From NCBI GenBank assembly GCA_947629955.1, contig CANRFT010000008.1, positions 1-64,000 on the forward strand: a DNA stretch of 64,000 nucleotides, read 5' to 3'. Shown here in pieces: positions 3,362 through 16,324 of the stretch; position 1 is the stretch's first letter, and each line of letters begins with the position of its first letter. Under the pieces are notes generated by a model that was not told where the DNA came from, searched no databases, and saw only the letters and a program-made list of their open reading frames with translations. Both the position numbers and the translations under genes were made by a program. This stretch comes from an uncultured Oscillospiraceae bacterium (lineage in GTDB: Bacteria; Bacillota; Clostridia; Oscillospirales; Oscillospiraceae).

Positions 3362-3940
3362 TCACACCCACGGGTCGTGCTCGGTGGCGACGCCGTACCA
3401 GCTCAAGGCCGCGGCCATGGCGTCCCCCCAGGTGGGGTGCCTGTCCCGGGCCATGGCCCAGGTGTTGTACCAGAACTTGTACCCGATCTCCAGCTGGCTG
3501 GGCAGGAGCTCCTCGATGATCTCCTTCATCCGCTCGAACCCCTCCGGGATGCCCGCCACGTCGGGGAAGCGCACCTGCACATGGTTGGGCTCGCCGGTCT
3601 CCTCCGCCACGGCGTTGAGCCCGCAGCCGGCCAGAGTGTCGTTGATGGCCGCCGGGGTAAAGCTGTCCCCGCTGACCCGCAGCAGAGCCGCCAGCGCCCG
3701 CCGCCGCTGGTCCGCCGTCACACACACCGGCCGGTAGGGCAGCAGCGCCTCGATCCGCTCCAGCCCGAAGCTCTCCGCGGTGGCCAGAGACATCTCCCGG
3801 GCGGTGCCGTCCAGCTCCGCCCCGACGCCGTCCAGCGCCCCGCCGTAAGCCGCCAGCTCCCCCCGGTTGACGGTGCCCTCCCGCAGGTCGTACACCCCCA
3901 GGGGCCGCAGCAGCTCCGCCAGATAGCTCTCATAGCTCAT
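3362..3940 (-). CDS. Phage tail protein, XkdU/YmfQ-like (DUF2313)
   Basis: A 192-residue protein that begins MSYESYLAELLRPLGVYDL and has the family-typical middle 'RRRALAALLRVSGDSFTPAAINDTLAGCG' (quoted here in part). This is the pattern of the XkdU / YmfQ / DUF2313 proteins that follow the baseplate J gene in PBSX- and Mu-like contractile tails; they form part of the baseplate wedge and often connect to tail fibres. It is the last gene of the operon: only a terminator hairpin follows, and no fibre or fibre-assembly gene is present. It lies 13 bp downstream of the baseplate J gene. Confidence 0.8.
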   Translation of the reverse strand: MSYESYLAELLRPLGVYDLREGTVNRGELAAYGGALDGVGAELDGTAREMSLATAESFGLERIEALLPYRPVCVTADQRRRALAALLRVSGDSFTPAAINDTLAGCGLNAVAEETGEPNHVQVRFPDVAGIPEGFERMKEIIEELLPSQLEIGYKFWYNTWAMARDRHPTWGDAMAAALSWYGVATEHDPWV

Positions 3941-3953
3941 ATCCGCCGCCCCC

Positions 3954-5015
3954 TCACGCCGGAGCGCCGTCGGTGATGGTCACCGTCTCCAGCACCGGCA
4001 GGGTGGACTTCTCCGCCTCCTGATCGGCCTCCGGCGCGGTGACGGTCACGTTGGCCACCCCGTCCACATTGAAGATCAGCGCGGTGAGCTCCGCCCGGGT
4101 CAGCGCCTTCCCCAGCCGCTCCCCGGTGAACCAGCCCCGCACCGCCGCCTCTACGGCGCTCTTCACCGTGTCGAACTCCAACCCGGCCTCCGCCGTGACC
4201 GCCGCCGCCACCGTCACCTTCCGCTCCTTGGGCGCCTCCACCTTGACCTCCACCGCGATCTCCCGCGCCTGGTCGAAGTAGGCCTGGAGGGCCTCCAGCA
4301 GCTCATGATCCGGCATGCCGCCCTGGGCGGCCACCACCAGGTCCACGGTGCCCACGCCCCGGACCTTGGACAGCACCGTCACCGCCGCCACCCCGTCAAA
4401 GGACATGGCCGCCTGCCGGTAGAAGGCGCTGTTGGCCCCGTTGGCCAGCCGGCGGTAGCTCTCCAGCACCCGTTCCCGGAGGCTCTCGTCGTCCTCCGCG
4501 TCCTTGCCGCCCGTCAGGGCGGCGGGATTGGCGCAGGCGGATATCCCCGTGGGCGGCAGCGCCATATACACCACGGTGTCCGGCGCCGCGTTGCCGGCCG
4601 CCCCCGCCTCCGCCGCCTCCACGGCCACGTCGGTCTGGGTGGAGCCGGCCGCGACCTTGCCGGCCTCCACGGTCAGGAACCGGGTCCCGGCGGCGGTCAT
4701 GCACACCGTCCCCTCCGGGATGTCCACGTCCTCCTCCCGGCTCCCGTCCACAAAGAAGCGCACCGTGCCGGTCGCCTTCACCGCCTGCCGCCGGTCGATG
4801 CCCCGCAGCCAGGCGTGGTTGTCCAGGTCCTCCCCTACGGCGGTCTGGGGGAAGCACTGCCGCCTGGTCCACTCGGCCTGGACATACAGGCTGTAGATCT
4901 CCGCCGCCACCGCGTAGAACCGCACCGCCAGCTCGCTGCTTCCCGCCGCGCTCTGGCCGGTCCTCTCCTGGAAGACCGCCGCCAGGTCCTGATAGATCTC
5001 CTCCAAGGTCACCAT
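3954..5015 (-). CDS. Baseplate J-like protein (XkdT-like)
   Basis: A 353-residue baseplate wedge protein. The N-terminal part MVTLEEIYQDLAAVFQERTG leads into 'SELAVRFYAVAAEIYSLYVQ' and then 'GEDLDNHAWLRGIDRRQAVKA', a diagnostic stretch of gpJ / XkdT proteins. The central 'AGAAGNAAPDTV' and 'GGKDAEDDESLRERVLE' motifs are also family-typical, and a C-terminal ferredoxin-like part ends at 'VDGVANVTV'. In contractile tails it joins the wedges around the central spike. It lies four bases after the gp25-like gene. Intact length argues against decay. Confidence 0.92.
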   Translation of the reverse strand: MVTLEEIYQDLAAVFQERTGQSAAGSSELAVRFYAVAAEIYSLYVQAEWTRRQCFPQTAVGEDLDNHAWLRGIDRRQAVKATGTVRFFVDGSREEDVDIPEGTVCMTAAGTRFLTVEAGKVAAGSTQTDVAVEAAEAGAAGNAAPDTVVYMALPPTGISACANPAALTGGKDAEDDESLRERVLESYRRLANGANSAFYRQAAMSFDGVAAVTVLSKVRGVGTVDLVVAAQGGMPDHELLEALQAYFDQAREIAVEVKVEAPKERKVTVAAAVTAEAGLEFDTVKSAVEAAVRGWFTGERLGKALTRAELTALIFNVDGVANVTVTAPEADQEAEKSTLPVLETVTITDGAPA

Positions 5016-5019
5016 ATCG

Positions 5020-5367
5020 TCACTCCTCCAACTCCACCGTCGCCGTCAGCTCCTCCCCCCGCCACTGCAGGGAGACGGCCGCCGTCAAAACATCGCCCGC
5101 CCGGCTCACCGCCGCCCCGGTCACCGTCAGATTGGGCAGATCGGTCAGGGCCTCGGCGGCGTACTGGCACGCCAGGTCCGCCCAGGCGGAGGGCTTCTCC
5201 CGACGGAGCAGATACATCCTGCTGCCCAGCTCGGGCAGGAAGGGGAAACTCCCCCGCCGGACAGCCAGTCGGAACAGCACCTCGTCCAGCAGGGCCTCGC
5301 CGCCGGTATCGGAGATCAGCCCGCCGGCCCCCGCCGCGTAATCCCTGTTCACCAGCCGCAGGCTCAT
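5020..5367 (-). CDS. Baseplate wedge protein, gp25/XkdS-like (DUF2634)
   Basis: A 115-residue protein. The middle part 'GGEALLDEVLFRLAVRRGSF' followed by 'FLPELGSRMYLL' matches the gp25 / Mu gp46 / XkdS group, where a conserved 'RxGxxPxxPxxGsxl' segment precedes a small alpha/beta domain. It belongs to the inner baseplate ring that contacts the sheath. It overlaps the upstream spike-like gene by four bases (ATGA), so the two are translationally coupled, and it precedes baseplate J as in PBSX and Mu. Confidence 0.82.
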   Translation of the reverse strand: MSLRLVNRDYAAGAGGLISDTGGEALLDEVLFRLAVRRGSFPFLPELGSRMYLLRREKPSAWADLACQYAAEALTDLPNLTVTGAAVSRAGDVLTAAVSLQWRGEELTATVELEE

Positions 5368-5720
5368 CCCTCTCCCCCCATCATACCGCCCACAATGGCG
5401 GCGATATAGCTCTCCAGAGGGGTCCCCTGGATCAGCACGTTCCCGTCCAGATCAAGGGTGCCCGCCTGGATGGTCACCCGGCCGGGCACATAGGCCCCCG
5501 TTCTGGTCCCCACCACGCAGGGGGTCTCCCCCCTGCCCTCGATCACCAGCACCCGCTGCCCCACCTCGGGGGTCCAGCGGTAGCCGGCGGGGCCGTACAG
5601 CTCCAGCCCCCGGCGCTCGCTGTCCAGCTCCACCGCCAGCTCGCCCCCGCTGATGGTCACGGTGCCAGTCTGGCCCTCGCCGCTCTCCGGGGGCCGTCTC
5701 TGCTGTCCGCTCAGCCACAT
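5364..5720 (-). CDS. Baseplate spike-like protein (XkdR / gpV-like)
   Basis: A 118-residue protein whose core 'ELYGPAGYRWTPEVGQRVLV' followed by 'IEGRGETPCVVGTRTG' resembles the OB-fold of baseplate assembly protein V / Mu gp45 spikes, where 'PYGYxSrPxxGdeVlVl' is typical. By position it also equals PBSX XkdR (DUF2577). After the OB-fold a repetitive strand region ('GRVTIQAGTLDLDGNVLIQG') fits the start of a beta-helical needle. The protein is short compared with full spikes. I cannot decide between a true piercing spike and a DUF2577 adaptor. Confidence 0.65.
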   Translation of the reverse strand: MWLSGQQRRPPESGEGQTGTVTISGGELAVELDSERRGLELYGPAGYRWTPEVGQRVLVIEGRGETPCVVGTRTGAYVPGRVTIQAGTLDLDGNVLIQGTPLESYIAAIVGGMMGGEG

Positions 5721-5737
5721 AATTCTCGTCCTCCTGT

Positions 5738-6691
5738 TCAGATCATGCTGTCCGGCTCGCCCAGGACCAGGGTGGTGGTCAGCCCGTTCTCCCCGCAGGA
5801 GACCTCCGCCTGGGCCGCCCGATACCGCCCGTTGGCCCCGCAGCCGGTGAGGGCCACGTCCACCAGCTGCCCCGGCCAGGCCAGAAAGGCCCCGGCCAGC
5901 GCCACCGTCAGCCGCTTCCGCTCCCGGCGGGAGGCTTTCATCTGATAGTCCGCCGTGTACCGCATGGCCGCCGTCCCGGTGATGTTGGGCACCGTCACCA
6001 CCCGCCGGGCCCTGCCGCCCTCGGCGATGAAGCTCCGGTCAGACACCCACTGGGTCCCCGGATGGGACCGCCGCCGCACCGCCACCTGGCTCAGCACCCC
6101 GTGGCGGTCCTCCCGGTACTCCCATCCGGTGAGGACGGTGTCGTCCCCGATCCGCAGAACGTTTTCGTTCCCGTGTCGGTCCAGCACCAGCCGGCCCATC
6201 CGGTCGAACCGGGGCACCACCCCGCCGTAGCAGCAGGCGAAGGTCCGCACCACGCCCCACTCGCTCTCTCCGCTGCTCACCGTGAAGTTGCTCACCACCG
6301 GCAGGCCGCCCCCGCCGACGGCGGTGATGCCGTAGGGGGTCACGTGGTCCGCCACGATGACCGCCCTGGTGGCCCGCTGATACTGGGCGGGCATGGCCTC
6401 GTTGTCCAGCAGCAGGGCGGCCATCCCCCGGCCGGAGATCTCCAGGTACAGCCCCTCTCTGCCGCATACCACCGCGTACTCGTCCACCACCCCGGTGAAC
6501 ACCCGCTCGCCCTCCCACTGGGCGTAGAAGCGGCACGCATCGGACAGCTCCCTCTCCTGGCCCTTCTCCCACAGGCACTTCACCTCGTAGCTGTCGCAGG
6601 GGGTGTCCGTCCCGTAGCAGAACCGCCAGCTCACCGCCGTGGGCAGGGTCAGCATCCCGCCGTTCCCGCGGGTCACCCAGCACTCGATCAT
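5738..6691 (-). CDS. Tail hub protein, XkdQ-like
   Basis: A 317-residue protein in the XkdQ position between the LysM protein and the baseplate genes. Visible elements are an N-terminal beta-rich segment with '[20 protein letters not shown]', a central '[23 protein letters not shown]' motif (given here in outline), and a late '[33 protein letters not shown]' region that resembles hub proteins of the gpD / gp27 fold. Tail hubs anchor the spike and join tube to baseplate. The start ATG overlaps the stop of the LysM gene (ATGA). PBSX XkdQ has a similar length. Confidence 0.78.
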
Positions 6692-7272
6692 CGCACCCTC
6701 ACCTTCTGTCCCACAAAGATCAGATTCGGATTCTTGATCTGGGGGTTCAGGGCGATGATCCGCGCCAGGGTGATGCCGTACCGCCGGGAGATGCCCCAGA
6801 GGGTGTCCCCCTTCACCACGGTGTACCAGCTCCCGCCGCCGGACCGGCTGCCGGCGCCCCCGGCCTGGCCCGAGGTCCCGCCGGATACCGCGGCGGCGGT
6901 CAGGGCGGTCTGCTCTCCGGCGCTCACCACCTCCCAGAACTCGAAGGAATAGGCCACATAGTCCCGCCGGGGCTCCTGCCTTACCTCCAGCGCCGCGAAC
7001 CAGGCGTTGGTGGTGGCCCAGACCGGGTGGATCAGCACCCCCGGCGTCTCCTCATAGAACACATTAGCCAGCTTTTTGAAGGTGTCATAGGCCCCCTCGC
7101 CCGCGAACTCCCCCTCCCCCCGGAGCACCCGCCGGGTCTGGCCCAGGCTCTGGAGATAATGCCGCCCGAAGGGGATCTTGTGGACCGCCATCTTCCGCTC
7201 AAAGGCGACGGTATAGGTCCTGGGATTGTGGGGCCACACGAAATTCTTGAACCGCATGGGGGAAAGCTCCAT
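6688..7272 (-). CDS. LysM tail protein, XkdP-like
   Basis: A 194-residue protein with two parts. Residues 1-115 ([20 protein letters not shown], later YSFEFWEV) match the N-terminal domain of XkdP-type proteins. After a Gly/Ser-rich linker, residues 148-194 form one LysM domain ([18 protein letters not shown] ... [13 protein letters not shown]). LysM binds peptidoglycan or glycan; in contractile tails this protein (gp53-like) connects tube, hub and baseplate. It follows the 219-residue acidic gene by 16 bp and overlaps XkdQ by four bases. Confidence 0.88.
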
Positions 7273-7288
7273 CCGCCCCGCTCCTCTC

Positions 7289-7948
7289 TCAATAGATGGT
7301 CATGCCGCCGTCGTACCGGCGGCTGTCCCGGCGCATGGCCCGGTCCAGCTCCTCCACTGACATCCGGGCGGCCTGGGACAGCACCGGGTCCGGCAGAGGC
7401 CGGTCCCCGGTCTGCCCCGCCGCCGGGGCCTCAAAGACCGGCTCCGCCGCCCGGGCCGCCGCCCGGTACAGCAGCTCCAGCCCAGACGGGTCCCCGCCCT
7501 GTCCGGCGGCGGGCGGCCAGATCGCCTCTCCAAAGCGTTTTGCCGCCCCCTCCGGGACCGGACCGTCCTCCCCCGTCAGCGCCGGGAGGGGGTCGGCCAT
7601 GCCGCCGTCCTCTTTCGGCGCGCCGCTGCGGGCCGCCCGGACGGCGTCCGTCTCCCGAACCGCCTGGGCCAGCTCCTCCGGGACGGGCTCCGATAGGTCC
7701 TCCTCCGGGATCGCCGGGACCTGCGGGCCGCCCTCCTCCGGGGCGGTCCCGTCCTTTTGGCGCGTCCCCGGGGCAGGCTCCGCCTCTCCCGGCTGTTCCG
7801 GGGGCTCCGTCTCCGCCGGGACCGGGGCGGTCTCTCTCCGCTCCGGCCCGGTCAGGGGGGCGGCGTCCACCACGTCCTCGTCCTGTTCTCTCTCGTCCTC
7901 GTCCTCAGTCTCCAAAATGCCCAGCAGCTCCGCCAATCGGTCGATCAC
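7289..7948 (-). CDS. Acidic low-complexity protein in the tape-measure position
   Basis: A 219-residue protein that I cannot assign. It starts with GTG immediately after the stop codon of the frameshifted chaperone extension. Residues 14-35 are almost all Asp/Glu, residues 40-140 are rich in Pro, Ala and Glu without hydrophobic pattern (probably disordered), and the C-terminus ([20 protein letters not shown]) is basic and looks ordered. In PBSX and Mu this slot holds the tape-measure gene, normally 600-1500 residues with long helices and membrane-active segments. None of that is present. It could be a truncated tape measure, a replacement for it, or a hinge protein. Confidence 0.6.
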
Positions 7949-8197
7949 TTACACGCCGCCCTCCTTCAGCTTCACATACCGCGCCCAGTCGAACCCGGCG
8001 TTGACCCCCCAGCTCTCCCTGGGGGTGCCGCAGGCGGGGCAGGGCTCCCGCTCCGCCCGCTCCCGGCAGGAGGGGCACAGCCGCGCCAGCTCCTCCTCCC
8101 GGTCCAGCGCCAGGTTCAAAGCGCACCACAGATAGTCCCGGTCCTTCATCTTCCGGGCCCGTTCCTCCGTGGGAAGAGCGCCGAACAGGCGGAGCAC
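7949..8197 (-). CDS. Frameshift extension of the tail-assembly chaperone (zinc ribbon)
   Basis: An 82-residue open frame that is in the -1 frame relative to the preceding chaperone and overlaps it by 52 bases. It has no good ribosome-binding site of its own and can start only at GTG. The frame stays open upstream to the slippery site at 8236-8242, so it is best read as the C-terminal half of a gpG-gpT type fusion of about 203 residues. Its sequence contains a zinc ribbon (LCPSCRERAE ... CPACGTPRE) ahead of 'GFDWARYVKLKEGGV'. Such two-domain chaperones wrap the tape-measure protein before tube assembly. The call rests on frame geometry and the classical slippery heptamer. Confidence 0.75.
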   Translation of the reverse strand: MLRLFGALPTEERARKMKDRDYLWCALNLALDREEELARLCPSCRERAEREPCPACGTPRESWGVNAGFDWARYVKLKEGGV

Positions 8198-8559
8198 GCG
8201 CCATTGAAGGCGCTCATAACGCGCGTGCTCCAGGCTTTTTTTCGCCGTTCCTGCTCCTCAGCGTCCCCCACCGGGGAGGGGTTCTGTTCCCGGTTGAATT
8301 TGGCCCACGCGTCGGACAGGCGGGCGATGTCCTCCACCCGCAGTCCGGCCAGCGCGGCCCGCCCGTCGGCAAAGACGGGCCTGCCGTCCTTTTCCAGCGC
8401 CCTGGCGAGGAGGCAGGCGTTGTCGCACAGCGCCCGCTCCTTCTCATCGGCGGCCAGGGCGGCCCCCTCCCGTCGGGCCTCCAGGGCCTCCAGGGCGGAC
8501 AGCAGCCGCAGCTCCCCCTCGGGCACCGTCATCCGCTCCCGTCCCGCCCGGATGCTCAT
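8146..8559 (-). CDS. Tail-assembly chaperone, XkdN-like
   Basis: A 137-residue mostly helical protein. The start ATG at 8559 overlaps the stop codon of the tail-tube gene (ATGA). Its C-terminal part DIARLSDAWAKFNREQNP (about residues 83-100) is typical of XkdN/gpG-type tail-assembly chaperones, which have a conserved tryptophan-containing helix before the frameshift point. The gene holds an A AAA AAA heptamer in the correct frame (8236-8242). About 108 residues precede the slip site, and unshifted translation ends at 8146. The gene position after sheath and tube fits. Confidence 0.8.
   Translation of the reverse strand: MSIRAGRERMTVPEGELRLLSALEALEARREGAALAADEKERALCDNACLLARALEKDGRPVFADGRAALAGLRVEDIARLSDAWAKFNREQNPSPVGDAEEQERRKKAWSTRVMSAFNGACSACSALFPRRNGPGR
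8236..8242 (-). promoter_or_regulatory. Programmed -1 ribosomal frameshift site
   Basis: On the minus strand the codons read CGA AAA AAA GCC, so the heptamer A AAA AAA lies exactly in the X XXY YYZ register. A -1 slip continues AAA AAA AGC CTG GAG and leads without a stop into the 7949-8197 frame. This matches the -1 frameshift of lambda gpG-gpT and Mu/PBSX-like tail chaperones. I did not identify a downstream stimulatory structure with certainty. Confidence 0.75.
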
Positions 8560-8957
8560 GTCCTGATCTCCAGCCGCTTCCGGGCCACCAGGGTCAGCTT
8601 CTCCACCACGGTCTGGCCCAGCTTGGCGTCCTCCTGGATGTCGCTCCACTGGCAGTCGGAGTAGATGATCTTCCGGTCCGGCTTACAGATGACCAGGGAA
8701 AAGTTCTTCAGATCGTAGAAGTCCAGTCCGTCGGCGATGGCCCCGTCGGTGGCGTACAGCCGGCTCAGCTGGATGGTGTGGGTCTGGGGTCCCTGCACAG
8801 TGGCCACCGGCTCGCTCTCACCGAAGGCCTCCACCGTGCCGGAAGCCCTGGTGGACTTGCTGGAATAGCTCTGCACCACGGCCACCTTTTTGCCGTCCAG
8901 CTCCAGCCAGATGTCGCTGCTGGTGGGGAACCCCGCCTGTCCAAAGGAAATACTCAT
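8556..8957 (-). CDS. Phage tail tube protein (XkdM-like)
   Basis: A 133-residue protein that follows the sheath gene by 15 bp. Beta-strand pattern and motifs such as 'GTVEAFGESEPVATVQGPQT' and 'YDLKNFSLVICKP' fit the tube proteins of PBSX-like contractile tails. Hexamers stack into the inner tube through which DNA or the spike passes. It is full length for the family and overlaps the chaperone gene by four bases. A Shine-Dalgarno (GGGGGAG) precedes the ATG. Confidence 0.85.
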   Translation of the reverse strand: MSISFGQAGFPTSSDIWLELDGKKVAVVQSYSSKSTRASGTVEAFGESEPVATVQGPQTHTIQLSRLYATDGAIADGLDFYDLKNFSLVICKPDRKIIYSDCQWSDIQEDAKLGQTVVEKLTLVARKRLEIRT

Positions 8958-8972
8958 GTCCTCTCCCCCTTA

Positions 8973-10025
8973 TCAAACGGTGATGTGGGCCGACAGCCAG
9001 ATCTGATTCAGCCCGTGGGCCACGGTGAAGGCGAACTCCACCAGACACACGGTGGGGTCCTCCGGCAGGGCGGACACGGTCACGTCCTCATAGCTGTCGA
9101 TGATCTCCCGGTCCACCCGCCGCTCCAGCTCCATCACGGTCTGGGAGCGGATGGCCCCTCTGGTCTGCTCGGTGTTCTTGGCCCGGCTGAACCGGGCGCG
9201 CAGGGCGTCCCGGATGCCGGGGATGACCTCGTCCACCACCAGGATGGTGGTCAGCTCCCGCCAGGTGGCGTCCTCAGCCGCGCCGGTGGTGGTCCGGGTG
9301 GTGACGGCCCGCACCACATAGCAGTTCCCCGCCAGCGTCTCCAGAGGGGTGACCCCGCCCCGGATGAGCAGGTCGATATCGCCGTCGTCATAGTTGGTCT
9401 CGATGCCGTTCAGGCCGTAGAGCCGCACCCCGCCCAGAGGCAGGGCCGGGTCGGCGTTGCCGGCGATGGCCCCCGCCAGCGCCGCGGCGCAGAGGGCGCC
9501 GCCGATCCCCTTGCCGGCGCTGTCCACCGCGCCGGGGGCCGCCAGCACCACCCGCTCGCTGTTGAGGGCCTTGGCCCGTGTGGTGAGCTGCTCCACTGTC
9601 TCGGCGGCCCTGCCGCCCACCACGGCGATACGCTCCTTCCGGGCAGCGGAGCAGGTCCGCACCATCTCCATCAGCTTCTTCTGCACGTCCTGGTCGTCGC
9701 TGTCGCACACCGCCACGGCCACGTCCTCCAGCCCCGCCGCCAGGGCGAAGGCGTCGTCATAGCCCTCGTCCGCCTTCACGGGGAGGCCGTACACCAGCCC
9801 CGCGCCGTTGCGGATGGCCAGCCGCGCCATCTCGCTGAGGGTGCCGGCGCCCACGTCGCCCACGGCCCGGCTGTAGCTGCTCCAGGTGTAGACCTTCTGG
9901 GCGTCCTCCTTCTCCAGCCTGGCGATGACGGCCACCGCCCCGCCCCGGTCCACGGCCGCCGTCAGGCTGGACGCCTCATAGGAGGAGTACACCCCCGGCC
10001 GCTCATGCTGTACTGTCATGCTCAT
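8973..10025 (-). CDS. Tail sheath protein (XkdK-like)
   Basis: A 350-residue contractile sheath protein. The N-terminal segment 'MTVQHERPGVYSSYEASS' is the usual beginning of sheath proteins ('.. RPGVY ..'). The C-terminal domain has 'CYVVRAVTTRT', 'ILVVDEVIPGIRDALRARF' and 'CLVEFAFTVAHGLNQIWLSA', which correspond to the conserved sheath core that interlocks neighbouring subunits. Its presence makes the particle myovirus-like (contractile). The start ATG overlaps the upstream stop codon (ATGA); a second ATG two codons later is also possible. Confidence 0.92.
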   Translation of the reverse strand: MSMTVQHERPGVYSSYEASSLTAAVDRGGAVAVIARLEKEDAQKVYTWSSYSRAVGDVGAGTLSEMARLAIRNGAGLVYGLPVKADEGYDDAFALAAGLEDVAVAVCDSDDQDVQKKLMEMVRTCSAARKERIAVVGGRAAETVEQLTTRAKALNSERVVLAAPGAVDSAGKGIGGALCAAALAGAIAGNADPALPLGGVRLYGLNGIETNYDDGDIDLLIRGGVTPLETLAGNCYVVRAVTTRTTTGAAEDATWRELTTILVVDEVIPGIRDALRARFSRAKNTEQTRGAIRSQTVMELERRVDREIIDSYEDVTVSALPEDPTVCLVEFAFTVAHGLNQIWLSAHITV

Positions 10026-10522
10026 GCTCTTCTCCCTTTCACTTCAAAGTCCGTAAAGCCCGGGCCGCCCTCGGCCTCCGCGGCCACGGTGAGCCACGCC
10101 CGGCACAGGCACTCGGTCCGCATCCGGTACATGCCCTCCCGGTCCAGCCACTCGGCCCGCTCCGCCGTCCACTCGGCGGCCTCCAGGCCGCCCGCCCCCC
10201 GGGTCAGCAGCAGCTCAGCGATCTTCTCCGCCGCCTCCTGGCAGGCCCCCTCGCCCCCGTCCGAAGGGGCGTACACATCGATGGCCAGAGTGATGTCCGC
10301 CGCCCGGCCGTAGAGCTCCGTCACCCTGCTGCCGTTGGTCTCGTTGCCCAGATAGTTCTCAAACCCGCTGTCGGCGCACCGCACCCGCTTCACGGACACC
10401 GCCGCCGCGGCCTCTCTCCACCGGCCCGCCGGCTCCGGCGCTCCGGCGGGCACCGCGTTGACCCCGTTCTCCCGCAGGAGGGAGACGACCCGCTCCCGCA
10501 GTCCGTTGAACCCGCCGCTCAT
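10022..10522 (-). CDS. Putative tail terminator / connector protein
   Basis: A 166-residue protein. The ATG at 10522 overlaps the stop codon of the upstream gene (ATGA), so this start is preferred over an upstream in-frame one. An N-terminal helix (GGFNGLRERVVSLLRENGV) precedes beta-rich sequence with 'ITLAIDVYAPSDGGEGACQE' and a helix (AAEKIAELLL). This layout resembles tail-terminator or head-tail joining proteins that cap the tube, and the position just before the sheath gene agrees with it. The family match is by position and fold pattern only. Confidence 0.6.
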   Translation of the reverse strand: MSGGFNGLRERVVSLLRENGVNAVPAGAPEPAGRWREAAAAVSVKRVRCADSGFENYLGNETNGSRVTELYGRAADITLAIDVYAPSDGGEGACQEAAEKIAELLLTRGAGGLEAAEWTAERAEWLDREGMYRMRTECLCRAWLTVAAEAEGGPGFTDFEVKGRRA

Positions 10523-10854
10523 GGGGCGACCGCCCCGCAGGGCCGCAGGGCCAGCCACAGGTGGGTGACGGCGTCCCCCACCGGGATGGGCTGGCAGTTC
10601 AGCACCTCATACCGCTGGCCGCTCCACTCCAGCCAGCCGCCGGGGCCGATGTTTTCCACCGGCGTCCCCGGCTCGGCCAGCCCCAAAAACCGGTCGTTCC
10701 GCTCGCTGCCCAGCGCCCCGCCGGCGGTCTGCCGGTCCTTCCCGTTCATGGGCCGGACGATGGCCATCCCCCGGCCCGTCTCGGCTCCGTCCTCCCTCCG
10801 GCAGATGAGCTCCTTTCCACAGGCGCGGATGACCTCTCCGAACAGCTCCGTCAT
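10519..10854 (-). CDS. Putative head-tail connector protein
   Basis: A 111-residue protein. Its ATG at 10854 overlaps the stop of the preceding connector gene and its own stop overlaps the next start, so three genes in a row are ATGA-coupled. Features include 'MAIVRPMNGKDRQTAGGALG' and 'FLGLAEPGTPVE' followed by 'GGWLEWSGQRYEVLNCQPIP', a beta-barrel-like pattern seen in XkdI/XkdH-type joining proteins. No catalytic motif was seen. The role is inferred from position between the head and tail modules. Confidence 0.55.
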   Translation of the reverse strand: MTELFGEVIRACGKELICRREDGAETGRGMAIVRPMNGKDRQTAGGALGSERNDRFLGLAEPGTPVENIGPGGWLEWSGQRYEVLNCQPIPVGDAVTHLWLALRPCGAVAP

Positions 10855-11198
10855 CCCCGCACCCCCCGGAACACGAACCCGGTATCCCGGATGTAGGGGG
10901 CCATCAGCTCCATGGCCCTGCCGGACAGCTTCCCGGCGGACGACCCGCTCTCCCGGCGGACGCTCAGGTCCCCGGCGGACAGGGCGGTGATCTCCGCCGC
11001 CCCGCCGCAGTCCCGCAGCCAGTCGGCGGCCATCCACGCCGCCGCCAGGGGATACCGCCCGCCGCAGTCCTCCGGCTTCACGCCGTCCCGCAGCAGAGCG
11101 TCCAGCGCCTCGCAGGCAGCGGCGCACAGCAGCCGCAGCAGCTCCTCGTCCTGTCCGGGGCACAGTCTTTTCACGATCTCCAGCACCGCGTCAGTCAT
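10851..11198 (-). CDS. Putative head-tail adaptor (gp6-like)
   Basis: A 115-residue mostly helical protein: 'AVLEIVKRLCPGQDEELLRL', an Ala-rich helix, 'YPLAAAWMAADWLRDCGG', and a C-terminal 'GRAMELMAPYIRDTGFVFRG'. Helical adaptors of this size bind the portal in HK97 gp6 / SPP1 gp15-type connectors, and genes of this kind come directly after the capsid module. It starts 15 bp after the protease gene and overlaps the next connector gene by four bases. Confidence 0.6.
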   Translation of the reverse strand: MTDAVLEIVKRLCPGQDEELLRLLCAAACEALDALLRDGVKPEDCGGRYPLAAAWMAADWLRDCGGAAEITALSAGDLSVRRESGSSAGKLSGRAMELMAPYIRDTGFVFRGVRG

Positions 11199-11213
11199 GT
11201 CCGCGCCCCCTTA

Positions 11214-12080
11214 TCAGATGAGATAGGCCCCGTCGGCGATCTCCGGCTCCTGTCCTTCCTCGCCGTAGCTAAGCTGGGGCCGCCCGGTGAGCAGCTTATC
11301 GGTCCTGCCCCGGTACAGCTTGATAAGGCCCAGCAGCTCCTCCTCGTCCAGCCTGGCGCACACCCGCTCCAGCAGGGCCCGGTCGGCCTCCGGCTCGGCG
11401 ATGCCCGCCAGCCGGGCCGTCTCCCGGCGCAGGCTCTTCAGGTACTTCCGTCCCAGCCGGGCCTCATCCTCCAGCCGTCTGGCGCTCTTGATGACCCCGG
11501 CCTTCCGCTGGGCGGGCACCGCCACGAAGGACCACTCATAGGCGTCGGTGGCCCCGGTGAGGACGCCGCAGCACACCTGCCCGTCATACTCCTGCCCCTT
11601 CTCGTGGGGGCAGTCCTCCAGGGGCTCGCCGCAGATGGAGCACAGCACGCTCTCCACCGCGCAGCCCACGCTGACCTCCCGCTTGATGCCCCCGTCGATC
11701 TCGGCGATGAGGTCGGCGTTCTCCGCCGTGCGCATCATGTAGGCCCAGCCCTTCAGATACTTATAGGGCCGCCCGTCGGCGGTGACCACGCCGGGATCGG
11801 CCACCACCTCCGCCCGGTAGATGCGGGCCGTCTGGCCCCTGGCCGACCACTGGTGGTCGAACACCCCGGACACCCCCGGGAACAGCTCCGCCAGAGCGTC
11901 CAGCGCGCCATCGTCGAACCGCTCATAGTCCCGGTCGATGTCGTTGTCGCAAAGCCGCACCGCGAAGGTGTAGACCTCCTCCGGCGCCAGTTCCCGCCGG
12001 GCCAGGGCGTTGATGAGGCCCATGTCCTCCATCTCCGGCTGGCCGATGGCCTTCACCACCGCGTCCTTACTGATCTCCAT
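11214..12080 (-). CDS. Putative prohead protease / XkdF-like protein
   Basis: A 288-residue protein. The stretch 'VYTFAVRLCDNDIDRDYERF' leads to 'GVSGVFDHQWSARGQTARIY', which resembles the catalytic His region of phage prohead proteases ('.. llDHd .. iGri ..'). A later 'IKREVSVGCAVE' fits the serine-containing strand ('kevSvgf'). It also carries a CxxC pair (VLCSICGEPLEDCPHE) and ends in a helical region. The start overlaps the portal gene by 14 bases. Catalytic residues are suggested by motif only; a fused scaffold function is possible. Confidence 0.72.
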   Translation of the reverse strand: MEISKDAVVKAIGQPEMEDMGLINALARRELAPEEVYTFAVRLCDNDIDRDYERFDDGALDALAELFPGVSGVFDHQWSARGQTARIYRAEVVADPGVVTADGRPYKYLKGWAYMMRTAENADLIAEIDGGIKREVSVGCAVESVLCSICGEPLEDCPHEKGQEYDGQVCCGVLTGATDAYEWSFVAVPAQRKAGVIKSARRLEDEARLGRKYLKSLRRETARLAGIAEPEADRALLERVCARLDEEELLGLIKLYRGRTDKLLTGRPQLSYGEEGQEPEIADGAYLI

Positions 12081-13212
12081 TCTTTCCCTCCTCGATGGCC
12101 CCGGCCTGCGCCCGGTAGAGCGCCGCTCTGGCCTCGGCCTCCTCGTCCTGCAAATTCACGTCGATCCAGTCGATGTCCACCCGGTCGTCGTACCCCTTCA
12201 GCCGCAGCCACAGCTCGCAGATCCGCTCCACCACCGGCTCCAGGCTCCGCCGGATGGCGGCGATCTCGCTGGTGAGGATGTCCGCCTGCTGGCTGCTCAT
12301 CCGCTCGGTGGAGGACCAGCTTAAGCCCAGCAAAAAGGGCGGGATGCCCGTCTTGGCCACCAGCTGCTCCAAGATCTGACGCACCGGCACCTCGCTGTCC
12401 AGCACCTGGTTGTCCGCACCGATGGCCCGGATCTCCACGTCGCCCGCGGCCACAAAGTCCCGCACGGCCCCGTCCCGGCTGGCCTGCATGGCGCCGGACC
12501 ACTCCTTTGCCACCTGCCGGCACCGCTCCTCGGCCAGGCCCGCCTCGGCCCCCTTGCACACCACCGCGAAGCGCACGTTGCCCATCCGTTCCCAGTTCTT
12601 GCCCGTGGCGTCGAATATCTTCATCAAAATCTCCGTCAAAAAGGGCATGGACCGCAGCATGGACGCGCCGTAGGGCGACCCGGCCTCCGGCTGGAAGGGG
12701 GTGAACAGCAGCAGCTCCTGCCGGGGCAGCTCTCTCAGCTTCCCGTCGCTGTCCCTGGCCCAGAGGGTAAAGTCCAGGGGGCTGTCCCCCTCCCGGATCT
12801 CCACCCGGCTCACGTCGGCCCACAGCACCGCCGCCACATCCCGGCCGTCGGCGGAGGGCACGATCTCCCCCACCGCCCGGCCGGCCACCAGCATGGAGTC
12901 CAGATAGCCGTCCAGAAAGGACTGGATGCCCCGCTGGCCCCGGCCGGTGGGGACGGTGCGGAGGAACCGCTCCATCCCCTCCTGGGCCTTTCGGTCCCTG
13001 CACCGGACGGTGACGCCGCCGCACAGCCGGACCAGCTTGTCGATGGCCGCGTCGATGACGGGCACCCCCTCCCGGATGGCCCGGTACAGGGCGGTCTCCC
13101 CGTTGTGGAGGGGCGCGTAGCCGTCCAGCATGGCAAAGGGATGCCGTCCGGCGTCCCGGAGCTGGGCGGCGGCCGCCGCCTGCCCCGCCTCTTTCCGTCT
13201 CAGAAGGCTCAT
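12067..13212 (-). CDS. Phage portal protein (DUF935/XkdE-type)
   Basis: A 381-residue portal protein, the dodecameric ring through which DNA enters the capsid. Typical parts are 'TALYRAIREGVPVIDAAIDK' near the N-terminus, the wing region with 'ELPRQELLLFTPFQPEAGSP YG' (gap inserted), and 'RQILEQLVAKTGIPPFLLGL' followed by 'ERMSSQQADILTSEIAAIRR', a stretch conserved in portals of the SPP1/Mu gp29 superfamily. Unusually it lies downstream of the capsid gene and not directly after the terminase. Confidence 0.85.
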   Translation of the reverse strand: MSLLRRKEAGQAAAAAQLRDAGRHPFAMLDGYAPLHNGETALYRAIREGVPVIDAAIDKLVRLCGGVTVRCRDRKAQEGMERFLRTVPTGRGQRGIQSFLDGYLDSMLVAGRAVGEIVPSADGRDVAAVLWADVSRVEIREGDSPLDFTLWARDSDGKLRELPRQELLLFTPFQPEAGSPYGASMLRSMPFLTEILMKIFDATGKNWERMGNVRFAVVCKGAEAGLAEERCRQVAKEWSGAMQASRDGAVRDFVAAGDVEIRAIGADNQVLDSEVPVRQILEQLVAKTGIPPFLLGLSWSSTERMSSQQADILTSEIAAIRRSLEPVVERICELWLRLKGYDDRVDIDWIDVNLQDEEAEARAALYRAQAGAIEEGKNGDQ

Positions 13213-13231
13213 GCTTCGCCTCCTATCGGGC

Positions 13232-14254
13232 TCAGCCCGCCGCGTTCATGGACAGGGCGCGGCTGGCGTCCTCAAAGATCTTGGCGTAGCCGGAGATGGT
13301 GGTGATGGCCGCACGCTCCAGCTGTCGGTCGATGATCTTGTCGTACTCCACCATCACGTCGCCGGCCTTCACCATCTCCAGGGCGTAGTTCTTGTCCAGG
13401 CCGATGATGGTGTCCTTAGGCATGGCGGAGGTGCGCAGCACCCTGGCACCCATGGGGGTGATGAGCCTGCCGGTGCCGTGGAAGTCCAGCCCGGCGGCGG
13501 CGTCCTGCATCTGGCTCATAGACAGCAGCTTGGTCATGGTGTCGGTGCCCACCAGCAAGGTGTTGAGCTGATAGGGCTCAAAGCTGTTCCAGAAGGCCAG
13601 CAGGTCGTCATAGGTCAGCTTGCCGGTGGCGGCCACATGGGACACCTCCGCCTTGTTGTCATTGCCGTCCCCGTTGAGGATCACGTCGATGGCGTCCTCC
13701 AGGTGCATCCGTCCGATCTGGGCGCCGATCTGCCGCAGGGTGACGGAGAACAGGTCCAGCTTCTGGAACCGGATGGCCTCATAGGAGGCCACCAGCATAC
13801 GGCCCCGCTTGTGGAGCTTCACCAGGCTGTCCCTGGTGCGCACGGTGGTCTGGGGGATGGCGGCCCCCTCGGCCACCCGCTTCAGGTTCTTCTCGTCCTC
13901 GGGCACGGAGGTGATGGAGCGGTAGTCCATCCCCTCGATGAGGGTCTCGGTGGCGGTGATGTCGGGGAGGATGTTGGCCTCCTCCATGCCCACCTTCACG
14001 GCCCGGGCGATGTACTCGGGGAACAGCACCGCCGACTGGGAGGTGGAGAAGAACTTGTCCACCAGGTCGGAGCCGGCCCCCTTCACCTTGATGTCGAACC
14101 GCTTCAGCTGCCGCTGATAGGCGTCCAGCCCCTCCAGGGCGGTGCCCTTGTACTGCTCGCTGGGATCCATTTTCTCCAGTACCTGGGTGAAGGACCTGCC
14201 CGCCTCGTGGTACATGCCCTTCTCCAGCTTCACATTGTCGAATCGATAAGCCAT
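13232..14254 (-). CDS. Major capsid protein (HK97 fold)
   Basis: A 340-residue capsid protein. The N-terminal arm is short, and 'LVDKFFSTSQSAVLFPEYIA' followed by 'RAVKVGMEEANILPDITATE' is the conserved entry into an HK97 fold. The E-loop region contains 'GMDYRSITSVPEDEKNLKRV AEGAAIPQ' (gap inserted), and 'DLLAFWNSFEPYQLNTLLVG' and 'PMGARVLRTSAMPKDTIIGL' mark the A and P domains. A Shine-Dalgarno (GGAGG) precedes the ATG. Length and motifs are intact. Confidence 0.87.
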   Translation of the reverse strand: MAYRFDNVKLEKGMYHEAGRSFTQVLEKMDPSEQYKGTALEGLDAYQRQLKRFDIKVKGAGSDLVDKFFSTSQSAVLFPEYIARAVKVGMEEANILPDITATETLIEGMDYRSITSVPEDEKNLKRVAEGAAIPQTTVRTRDSLVKLHKRGRMLVASYEAIRFQKLDLFSVTLRQIGAQIGRMHLEDAIDVILNGDGNDNKAEVSHVAATGKLTYDDLLAFWNSFEPYQLNTLLVGTDTMTKLLSMSQMQDAAAGLDFHGTGRLITPMGARVLRTSAMPKDTIIGLDKNYALEMVKAGDVMVEYDKIIDRQLERAAITTISGYAKIFEDASRALSMNAAG

Positions 14255-14274
14255 AGTTGATCTCCTCCCGTTTT

Positions 14275-14625
14275 TTACAGCTTCACGGTCACGGTCTTGG
14301 CAGTCTCGTCCACGGCCAGCACCAGGCAGGTGAGCCCGCTGTCCTCGGCCTTGACCAGCATCCCCTTGCCGTCGCAGGTCAGGCTCTCATAGCCTGCCTT
14401 GGGCACGGTCTCGCCGGAATAGGCCACCGTCACCGCCCCCGCGATCTGGACGGCCACCGCGCCGTTCCGGGCCGCGCCCACCGTGACGCCGCAGGGCAGC
14501 GCGCCGCTCTCGCCCAGGCCCACGGTGGAGCTGCCGGTCAGCGCCACCGCCTGGCCGGCGCTCAGCTCCGCCTCCGTCCGGAAGGTGGCCACCGCCTGAC
14601 CGATGCCCTCAAAGCAAATCTCCAT
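14275..14625 (-). CDS. Putative capsid decoration / stabilisation protein
   Basis: A 116-residue, Gly/Ala/Val-rich, beta-strand protein ('ELSAGQAVALTGSSTVGLGE', 'NGAVAVQIAGAVTVAYSGET') without Cys clusters other than scattered ones. Small beta-rich proteins of this kind (DUF2190-like) sit next to the capsid gene and trimerise on the capsid surface. It lies 20 bp upstream of the capsid gene in the transcription direction and downstream of a repeat-containing gap. The assignment is by composition and position. Confidence 0.55.
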   Translation of the reverse strand: MEICFEGIGQAVATFRTEAELSAGQAVALTGSSTVGLGESGALPCGVTVGAARNGAVAVQIAGAVTVAYSGETVPKAGYESLTCDGKGMLVKAEDSGLTCLVLAVDETAKTVTVKL

Positions 14626-14687
14626 GTCTCATGCTCCTCTCATTGGATGTATATCTGGAAACCCCGTTACGGGTATCTCCCGTTGAA

Positions 14688-14766
14688 AGCCCTCCAGCCT
14701 CCCCCCTCGGGGGAGGTGGCCCGAAGGGCCGGAAGGGGCTGTAGGGGCCGCCCCATGTGGCGGCCC
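14688..14766. repeat. REP-like palindromic repeat inside the phage operon
   Basis: The 149-bp gap between the decoration gene and terL contains two adjoining palindromes: a CCTCCCCC/GGGGGAGG-based one with 'GGCCCGAAGGGCC', and TAGGGGCCGCC followed by CCATGTGGCGGCCC. The second is the same unit seen at 19339-19365, 24289-24372, 30982-31071 and 48640-48680 between host genes. Confidence 0.8.
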
Positions 14767-14774
14767 TTTCCCTC

Positions 14775-16010
14775 CTACCCCGCCCTTCGTTCCACGCTCA
14801 CCGCCGCAAGCGGCTCCTCTGTTTCCAGGCTCATCACAAAGTACCTGATGTCGTCCATGGCGTGGTCATGCTCCTTGTGGACCCGGTCCTTCGTGCCGTC
14901 GTCCTCCCAGCGGTACAGCCCGAACTCTCGGAGGGCGGCCCCGCACCCCCTGCAGATGACCACCCGCCCCTCCTTCAGGGCCGCCGCCGTCCGCCGGATG
15001 CCCTCGATGACCCGGTTGTCCGCCTTCCGCACCGGCCAGCCCTTCCGCCGCAGCGCCTCGATGAAGCTGGCCGCCGACGGGTCCACGATCACCGCCTCGA
15101 TCCGCCGCCCCCCGGCCAGCCGCTCCAGGTCCTGGACGTACTCGCCGTCGGTCCTCTGGCTGCCCTCCGCCGCGGCGTCATAGTAGAACTCCCTCACCCG
15201 GTACCACACCCCGTCCTTCAGCCCCCACAGGCCGAAGGAGGCCGGGTTCCGGGTACCGTAGTCGCAGGAGATCCGCCACCGCTCACAGCCGCCCCTGGGG
15301 GCGGGCGGGACCCGGGCGGGGTCGAAAAAGTCGTACACCAGCCCCTCAGGGGACACCCACTCCCCCAGCACATACCGCCGGTAGAAGACCCCCCGGAACA
15401 TCCGCCGGTACCGCTCCTTGGCCCGCCTGGTCAGGGCCGGGTTGTCGTCCATGGTGAAGTGGAGATACAGCGCCCGCTTCTCCTCCGCCCGCTGGATCCA
15501 CTCCCGGTAGAACCAGTGGGCCTGCCCCGCCGGGTTGCAGGAGAACCACACCTTGGCCTCCGGCAGGGAGCACCGGGCCACGGCCTGCTCCACAAAGGAT
15601 CGGGGCATCAGCGCCACCTCGTCCAGCAGCGCCCCCGCCAGGGTCACCCCCTGGATGAGGGAGGCGCTGGCCTCGTTCCGCCCACCGTAGAGATAAAAGG
15701 TGTTCTCCCGTCCTCCGCCCCGGAGCACCACCTGGTTCCGGCTGAGCCGCTCCTCCCAGCGGAAGCCCAGCGCCTCCATCTCCCCCCGCACGGGGGCCAG
15801 CAGGTTCCGCCGCGCCCCGTTGATGGTGGGGGCGCACAGCCCGAACCGCTGCCGCTGGAACCGCACCATAGCCCACAGGAAGAACGCCACGGTCACGGCG
15901 TAGCTCTTGCCGGAGCGCACCGCCCCGTCGCAGATGACGGCGTCATAGTCCCCCGTCCTCCACCAGGTCAGCACCTTCCGCTGCTTCGGGGAAAATCCGC
16001 TCCCGCTCAC
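14775..16010 (-). CDS. Phage terminase large subunit (XtmB-like)
   Basis: A 411-residue packaging motor. The ATPase domain has Walker A GAVRSGKSYAV, Walker B with GALLDEVALMPR, and a coupling motif region 'VWFSCNPAGQAHWFYRE'. The nuclease domain has the acidic residues of the RNase H-like fold: ISCDYGTRNPASFGLW, VIVDPSAASFIEAL and DHAMDDIRYFVM. All catalytic positions look intact. The start is GTG at 16008-16010, overlapping the TGA of terS (GTGA); the longer in-frame extension is the terS gene in another frame. PBSX XtmB is of similar length. Confidence 0.92.
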   Translation of the reverse strand: MSGSGFSPKQRKVLTWWRTGDYDAVICDGAVRSGKSYAVTVAFFLWAMVRFQRQRFGLCAPTINGARRNLLAPVRGEMEALGFRWEERLSRNQVVLRGGGRENTFYLYGGRNEASASLIQGVTLAGALLDEVALMPRSFVEQAVARCSLPEAKVWFSCNPAGQAHWFYREWIQRAEEKRALYLHFTMDDNPALTRRAKERYRRMFRGVFYRRYVLGEWVSPEGLVYDFFDPARVPPAPRGGCERWRISCDYGTRNPASFGLWGLKDGVWYRVREFYYDAAAEGSQRTDGEYVQDLERLAGGRRIEAVIVDPSAASFIEALRRKGWPVRKADNRVIEGIRRTAAALKEGRVVICRGCGAALREFGLYRWEDDGTKDRVHKEHDHAMDDIRYFVMSLETEEPLAAVSVERRAG

Positions 16011-16324
16011 TGTCCATCGCCGCTCTCCGCCGTGCCCAGCTCGTCCAGCAGCCTGCCCAGCTCCCGGTCGTCCCGCCGGTCCAGCAGCTGGCCCAGCAGG
16101 TCCAGCACCCGCACCTTGTCCACGAATTTCAGCTCGACGGACCCGTTGCCGTGCCGCTTCAGCTCGGTCACCCCCGTCAGGTCCAGCCCATCGATCTGGT
16201 CCGTCTGCTCCTCGCCGAGCCAGGCCAGCTTCACCGCGTCGTTGTTCTTCCACCGGGCCAGCCTGCGCAGATGTCTCACCGGCTCGCTGTACCGCCGGGC
16301 CGCTTTCTTCGTCTCCCCGTCCAT
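16007..16324 (-). CDS. Putative terminase small subunit (XtmA-like, short)
   Basis: A 105-residue protein that opens the phage-particle operon. It has a strong Shine-Dalgarno (GGAGGAGG) six bases before the ATG. Content is 'PVRHLRRLARWKNNDAVKLA', a beta hairpin 'VTELKRHGNGSVELKF', and 'DKVRVLDLLGQLLD', which resembles the oligomerisation part of terminase small subunits ('.. kv kALemLgk hlgl'). A classic N-terminal helix-turn-helix for pac-site recognition is not obvious, so DNA recognition may be reduced or non-specific. Identity is inferred mainly from position directly before terL. Confidence 0.65.
   Translation of the reverse strand: MDGETKKAARRYSEPVRHLRRLARWKNNDAVKLAWLGEEQTDQIDGLDLTGVTELKRHGNGSVELKFVDKVRVLDLLGQLLDRRDDRELGRLLDELGTAESGDGQ

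Follow-up and report, generated by a model that had tools for sequence, protein, structure and literature searches.

The operon analysed here lies at positions 3362-16324 on the minus strand of a 64,000-nucleotide stretch of DNA (the window; contig CANRFT010000008.1 of assembly GCA_947629955.1) from an uncultured bacterium of the family Oscillospiraceae, and comprises 20 co-directional, tightly packed and often overlapping frames for a DNA-packaging head and a contractile tail. Our results suggest, with a probability that we would put at roughly 0.7, that this element encodes a contractile, host-domesticated particle resembling a gene transfer agent (GTA), inherited vertically through the order of its hosts, which we take to be Oscillospirales in GTDB terms. 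An earlier note on this DNA had proposed a long-resident, selected particle locus of the GTA or PBSX type, and this proposal is supported by the presence of the element across the family, the low ratios of nonsynonymous to synonymous divergence (dN/dS, or omega) and the agreement of its trees with those of the host.

There is strong evidence that the element descends vertically. For 56 genomes, a tree built from TerL, the portal, the head protein and the capsid (1372 columns) was set against a host tree of RpoB and RpoC (2468 columns). The set was then reduced to 55 by the removal of G538, since the locus of this genome is a siphoprophage with a distant capsid; the outcome was hardly altered. 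The two trees have 39 of 52 splits in common, where 500 label shuffles gave a mean of 0.2 and a maximum of 2, and among strong splits (support of at least 95) 34 of 39 from the host recur in the head tree and 31 of 32 from the head in that of the host. For the family alone, the trees agree in 26 of 34 splits, 25 of 28 strong host splits are recovered and the Mantel r reaches 0.87, against at most 0.20 in 999 permutations. Likewise, a tree of the tail proteins (sheath, tube, LysM, hub, J and XkdU) from 45 genomes has 34 of 42 splits in common with the host tree (500 shuffles, mean 0.2, maximum 3), and strong host splits are recovered in 29 of 31 cases. Vertical inheritance and co-diversification with the host, given as attributes of GTAs in PMC9662315, are thus seen in the splits of both head and tail.

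As a control we used the baseplate J gene of a different prophage, which lies on contig C2 of the window genome. It had matches in 13 of 40 genomes, or in nine once G118, G182, G200 and G169 were dropped, whose sole match is the element's own J, and it is absent from the other four genomes of the genus. The identity of this control gene bears no relation to host distance (rho -0.04, n=8; 0.15, n=12, with the four own-J genomes kept), whereas capsid identity falls with it (rho -0.80, n=36; -0.82 on the control's same eight genomes). This different behaviour, together with the co-divergence, makes it very improbable that the locus is an active temperate phage or satellite, moving horizontally with an integrase that merely lies out of view. 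Temperate prophages carry an integrase, a repressor and replication genes, and Pfam and PHROGs scans found none of these among the 20 element proteins and six flanking proteins. A mobile phage would agree with the insertion sites, which differ between most genera, and with IMG/VR, where relatives are encoded in 284 stretches, often on contigs of 12-14 kb (of the 80 stretches retained, 31 lie on contigs of 12.0-14.4 kb); contigs of this size suggest that the element has probably been called as a provirus. Against mobility, the nearest annotated phage capsid is only 27% identical, and in four of nine loci of a related family, f23, belonging to four genera, the element occupies one host site, before genes named by eye as hflX, flavin reductase, argG and argH. 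Five closer records, filed as 'Bacteriophage sp.', carry no annotation, and among them MT835769 has 15 element profile matches. Another of them, the 46.7-kb record MT835508.1 (locus L258) from human faeces, reads by eye as a fragment of bacterial chromosome, with ribosomal-protein, secY-, rpoA- and rnf-like genes (again by eye) plus the element's head module; if its source was a preparation of particles, it may represent host DNA that had been packaged.

The element is far from being the property of one strain. Its capsid is found (E<=1e-10) in 89 of 250 family genomes, representing 49 of 106 genera, in one copy per genome (one match is split over two contig ends), and other families of the order carry it as well: in the order search it occurs in 58 of 345 genomes and 36 of 162 genera, 57 of these genomes having a single copy and one having two, with the siphoprophage genome G538 among the 58. 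At the level of the class there are 11 positive genomes out of 391, eight of them within the order and the other three weak (84 to 176 bits). TerL was detected in 215 of 396 genomes of family f26 (E<=1e-40), in 25 of which the best E lies above 1e-110 and may reflect truncated copies or the TerL of ordinary phages. By its capsid, the closest relative (98%) is L073, from a metagenome-assembled genome (MAG) of the rabbit gut. Thirteen core genes (TerS, TerL, portal, head protein, capsid, sheath, tube, LysM, hub, spike, gp25, J and XkdU) are complete in 36 of 40 fetched family loci, the four others being L050, L057, L058 and L062, and full loci span 11.5-14.3 kb; profile scores of connectors 1-3 and of the two chaperone frames were pooled and not used. 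The usual order in relatives is TerS, TerL, portal, head protein, decoration, capsid, connectors and tail; the capsid precedes the portal in the window, G247 and L073, and the head protein in L239.

The main head and tail genes are under purifying selection. Against L073, by the Nei-Gojobori method, the element has a synonymous divergence (dS) of 0.23 and an omega of 0.25, compared with 0.21 and 0.14 for the RecD2 and ABC transporter genes nearby, and single genes range from 0.075 for the capsid and 0.084 for TerL through 0.12 for the portal, 0.14 for the tube and 0.16 for the sheath to 0.20 for the head protein; selection has therefore not been relaxed in the capsid, TerL, portal, tube and sheath, in keeping with the selected locus proposed in the earlier note. 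None of the 40 family loci has an interrupted capsid frame; stops that were reported within matches fall just beyond the true end. It is hardly credible, given this selection, the intact capsids, the single copy per genome and the head and tail trees that follow the host, that the locus is a defective prophage remnant, unselected and decaying in place, as might otherwise be read from its want of integrase and replication genes, its patchy presence and a few relatives with probably broken genes.

The terminase, too, is consistent with a packaging particle of the GTA kind. In TerL, for which rows were obtained from 58 of 60 loci, the Walker A lysine and the Walker B DE are conserved in 58 of 58 rows and three aspartates in all 57 rows with a letter at that position; we take the aspartates to be the nuclease triad, and the catalytic motifs are indeed intact, as had been claimed from the window alone. 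The N-terminal half of TerS is missing: of ten relatives scanned seven match Terminase_2, and in every one of these the match starts at position 55-68 of 141; the part lost is presumably the DNA-binding domain. Known GTAs have a TerS without a detectable DNA-binding domain (PMC11841831), and the TerS of the element, as predicted from its domain boundaries, would agree with them. A further head gene, encoding a protein of 288 residues with six cysteines that are invariant in 27 aligned members, belongs to no Pfam family. The earlier label of protease for it was not upheld: there is no Pfam match, the PHROGs match is of unknown function and no PDB fold match appears at E<=0.001.

The tail of the element varies between families. 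Sheath and tube are found in three f26 loci (L246, L247 and L254), whereas the f23 loci L243-L245, L250, L252, L253 and L255 keep LysM, hub, spike and wedge, often with a fibre-like gene, and have no sheath and an absent or weak tube; the f26 loci L238-L240 stop after the hub, while L242 (f23) and L258, the piece of chromosome, have nothing beyond the connectors. A search for Baseplate_J in 14 genomes found none anywhere in nine with such stripped loci; in a tenth, G500, there is a match on another contig. The agreement of the tail tree with that of the host makes it more likely that the contractile form is ancestral and that the stripped forms are derived.

This series bears on a further explanation, to which we would give a small yet appreciable chance: heads that pack random host DNA on a particle acting as a tailocin against close relatives, with no gene delivery. 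Tailocins and contractile injection systems as such have no capsid, portal or terminase, all of which are present in the operon. PBSX of Bacillus subtilis is contractile, has the xkd-type gene order that we also find in the element, and carries a large tape-measure protein, fibres and a lysis module. The element differs from it in a tape-measure slot of 219 residues and in the absence of fibres from the operon. PBSX packages random host DNA, in pieces of 13.4 kb, and is itself described as non-injecting and tailocin-like (PMC12946183), which would favour a killing role for the element too. Sheath and baseplate are moreover kept in 36 of 40 family loci, and dS at the baseplate end exceeds that of the head genes, which would be expected if targeting diversifies. 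Nevertheless, the window operon has no fibre gene and the tail must be very short, and, because nine genomes with reduced tails have no Baseplate_J, contractile killing is probably not the function that has been conserved throughout the order, whereas the packaging head has been.

The genes between tube and LysM bear on the short tail that the GTA-like reading implies. In none of 38 loci measured does this interval exceed 1553 bases, so that the slot holds no long tape-measure, and the 219-residue protein found there is, from its position, a candidate tape-measure. A pattern for its conserved C-terminal motif matched 28 of 40 family loci, five more having variants recognised by eye, and frames bearing the motif are 99-272 residues long from stop to stop. 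Before it lies the chaperone, whose two frames have a -1 overlap at an A7 slippery heptamer. A scripted scan of 41 loci, the window included, found overlapping frames in ten, all ten with the heptamer, while 12 others were labelled fused and 19 lacked the motif of the second frame; the label 'fused' is crude, since on inspection the chaperone is a true single open reading frame (ORF) in L039, L041 and L043 and consists of two frames in L038, L042, L044 and L045. In L061 and L068, and in L051, L063 and L071, the tape-measure motif ends frames that start like chaperone pieces, the arrangement differing by lineage. Beyond the last tail gene, seven f23 and f26 loci (G271, G385, G406, G459, G470, G494 and G537) have a fibre-like ORF of 153-184 residues, and the family loci G064, G150, G200 and G246 have a different ORF of 114-158 residues that looks by eye like a carbohydrate-binding protein; the window has neither.

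The genes of the operon are listed in Table 1. They were named from Pfam and PHROGs, except for connector 2, the spike, the chaperone and the 219-residue protein, which were named from position. Shared direction and tight packing are as first described, and the count of 19 genes then given holds only if the two chaperone frames are taken as one gene.

Table 1. Genes of the element in the window, in 5' to 3' order of the minus strand.
Gene product	Position	Strand	Basis and remarks
TerS-like small terminase	16007..16324	-	105 aa, without N-terminal half
TerL large terminase	14775..16010	-	Terminase_6N, phrog_2; conserved catalytic residues
Decoration / virion structural protein	14275..14625	-	phrog_4588
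Major capsid protein	13232..14254	-	Phage_capsid_4, phrog_3922 3e-111
Portal	12067..13212	-	phrog_30703 3e-157
Head protein, conserved Cys, protease or scaffold	11214..12080	-	phrog_16951 (unknown function); AF2 model without PDB match at E<=0.001
Head-tail connector 1	10851..11198	-	phrog_541 adaptor, weak; position
Connector 2	10519..10854	-	position; no family match
Connector 3 / tail terminator	10022..10522	-	Tail_completion_gp17, weak; phrog_25177
Contractile sheath	8973..10025	-	Phage_sheath_1 and _1C above cut-off
Tail tube	8556..8957	-	phrog_27038 (unknown function), weak phrog_985; position after sheath
Tail assembly chaperone, first frame	8146..8559	-	position; -1 overlap with next frame at A7 slippery site
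Chaperone -1 frame extension, Cys-rich zinc-ribbon-like end	7949..8197	-	weak zinc-ribbon matches; -1 overlap
Mini tape-measure candidate, 219 aa, Pro/Glu/Ala-rich	7289..7948	-	position; no family match; conserved C-terminal motif
LysM baseplate/tail protein (XkdP-like)	6688..7272	-	LysM, DNA_circ_N; also phrog_380 (labelled endolysin)
Baseplate hub (XkdQ-like)	5738..6691	-	phrog_177 2e-38
Spike candidate	5364..5720	-	phrog_25991 (unknown); position
gp25/gp46-like wedge	5020..5367	-	GP46, phrog_180
Baseplate J (XkdT-like)	3954..5015	-	Baseplate_J 1e-52
Gp48/XkdU-like wedge	3362..3940	-	Phage_Mu_Gp48 weak, phrog_521

The surroundings of the element are those of a chromosomal locus. It sits between genes for MreB and RecD2 (Pfam), beyond which lie an RlmA-like methyltransferase, MarR and an ABC transporter, with no integrase among the six flanking proteins, and its GC content at third codon positions (GC3) is 0.92, against 0.94 in five neighbouring host genes, a likeness to the neighbours already remarked upon in the earlier note. 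Chromosomal location, host-like GC3 and lack of an integrase in the element and nearest flanks together agree with full endogenization in the host genome, an attribute of GTAs (PMC9662315). No near-identical direct repeats bracket the element among the 20 largest of 27 repeat families, so that no att-like repeat was seen there, in keeping with what had been proposed, and positions 1-25000 contain no tRNA. The host genes on both sides were correctly recognised from the start, and the terminators reported with them were not recovered, as the mreB side has one terminator-like site (2935-2915), not above chance, and the recD2 side none. The gap between recD2 and terS has no sigma70-like promoter, and transcription could therefore proceed by read-through from recD2 or from another type of promoter. 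Nor is the interval from mreB to recD2 a site common to the family: the element has recD2 beside it in the window as well as in L073 and L074, and mreB in the window and in G247, and other flanks differ, those within the window's family being common mainly to near relatives. In three genomes of the same genus without the element (G066, G145 and G202), mreB and recD2 are on separate contigs.

Several observations weigh against a domesticated, vertically inherited GTA. The element is dispensable, as 161 of 250 family genomes, counting incomplete MAGs, lack the capsid, and three of five genomes of the same genus lack the element. In the element tree f23 and f26 are not monophyletic and f1 is so only at a support of 74, which could mean either exchange or weak deep signal. 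Against L073, dS rises from 0.08-0.21 between TerS and chaperone to 0.39-0.48 between the mini tape-measure and XkdU (3362-7948), suggesting that the baseplate, or recognition, end has been exchanged by recombination. Omega is higher for TerS, decoration, connectors and mini tape-measure (0.2-1.0 over seven relatives; 0.45-0.73 for the mini tape-measure), low profile scores mark the L039 sheath, the L047 J and the L066 TerL as likely broken or cut, whether in reality or by assembly error, and no TerS or TerL was obtained for L251. Fold searches with TerS gave no PDB match at E<=0.001 and, with VIA-align, a weak match of low Z to the oligomerization core only, among unrelated rows; because of these low values the loss of its domain is read mainly from Pfam boundaries. 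Finally, the window operon has no fibre gene and no clear lysis gene. Of the phage modules first reported as missing, integrase, replication genes, fibre and large tape-measure are indeed so, while the absence of lysis depends on taking the LysM protein, which has a DNA_circ_N match, for an XkdP-like tail protein.

No published description of the element was found in the open literature, most subscription papers lying outside that search. Few GTAs are known, and those formally recognised come mainly from Alphaproteobacteria and Brachyspira, according to Borodovich et al. 2026 (PMC12946183). That study reports 25 GTA events, three of them in Onthomonas (Oscillospiraceae), and describes operons only for Faecalibacterium, its operon search having included an Onthomonas MAG (PMC12946183). 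The element is a candidate for the operon missing for packaging in Onthomonas. It resembles FpGTA I and II, as described there, in its occurrence in gut Clostridia, in a TerS without DNA-binding domain and in having no replication genes, and the order TerS, TerL, portal, head protein and capsid also agrees, the comparison being by description only (PMC12946183). FpGTA differs in its podovirus-like form and in a further operon that encodes baseplate, fibre, holin and endolysin (PMC12946183), whereas in the element sheath, tube and baseplate are joined in one operon and there are no clear lysis genes; the relatives with reduced tails do recall this podovirus-like, split layout. From the Baseplate_J matches in the window genome no counterpart of FpGTA II was recognised, contig C2 being annotated and C44 not. 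C2 (L333) was considered as a second operon and rejected, since by Pfam it is an ordinary prophage that has a holin, a CHAP-domain lysin and a fibre; C44 (L335) has a further sheath and two Baseplate_J matches. With RcGTA of Rhodobacter capsulatus the element has in common co-divergence with the host and the form of TerS (PMC11841831), as well as a short tape-measure, which in RcGTA has about 216 residues (113+83+20) for a tube of five hexamers (PMC7296036). RcGTA differs in its non-contractile tail, its proteobacterial host and its proven delivery.

If the element is a GTA, a subset of cells would, under host control, assemble a small head, which TerL and a TerS free of specificity would fill with arbitrary chromosomal DNA by the headful. 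Among the attributes of GTAs is a head that does not have room for their entire genome (PMC9662315). The mini tape-measure of roughly 200 residues would set a very short contractile tube, and release and receptor binding would have to come from genes encoded elsewhere; we speculate that the holin, CHAP-domain lysin and fibre of the C2 prophage could be their source. The particle would then deliver DNA to kin, or at least export it. It is an even question whether a single GTA lineage was ancestral to Oscillospirales, contractile at first, whose tape-measure shrank to some 200 residues and whose tail was later cut back several times, in separate lineages, to a baseplate on a head, a head with hub or a head with connectors, so that the 'tailless' FpGTA would be one end product and the window element the least reduced form.

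A GTA-like element that is inherited vertically throughout an order of abundant gut anaerobes could account for the finding of their DNA packaged in faecal particles, and would give genetic access to this packaging in cultured hosts, among them Oscillibacter valericigenes Sjm18-20 (L109). Virus catalogues would be affected as well, as IMG/VR lists many such loci as viral contigs. The relatives of the element may also offer a natural series that shows how a contractile tail is lost from a particle that retains its packaging head.

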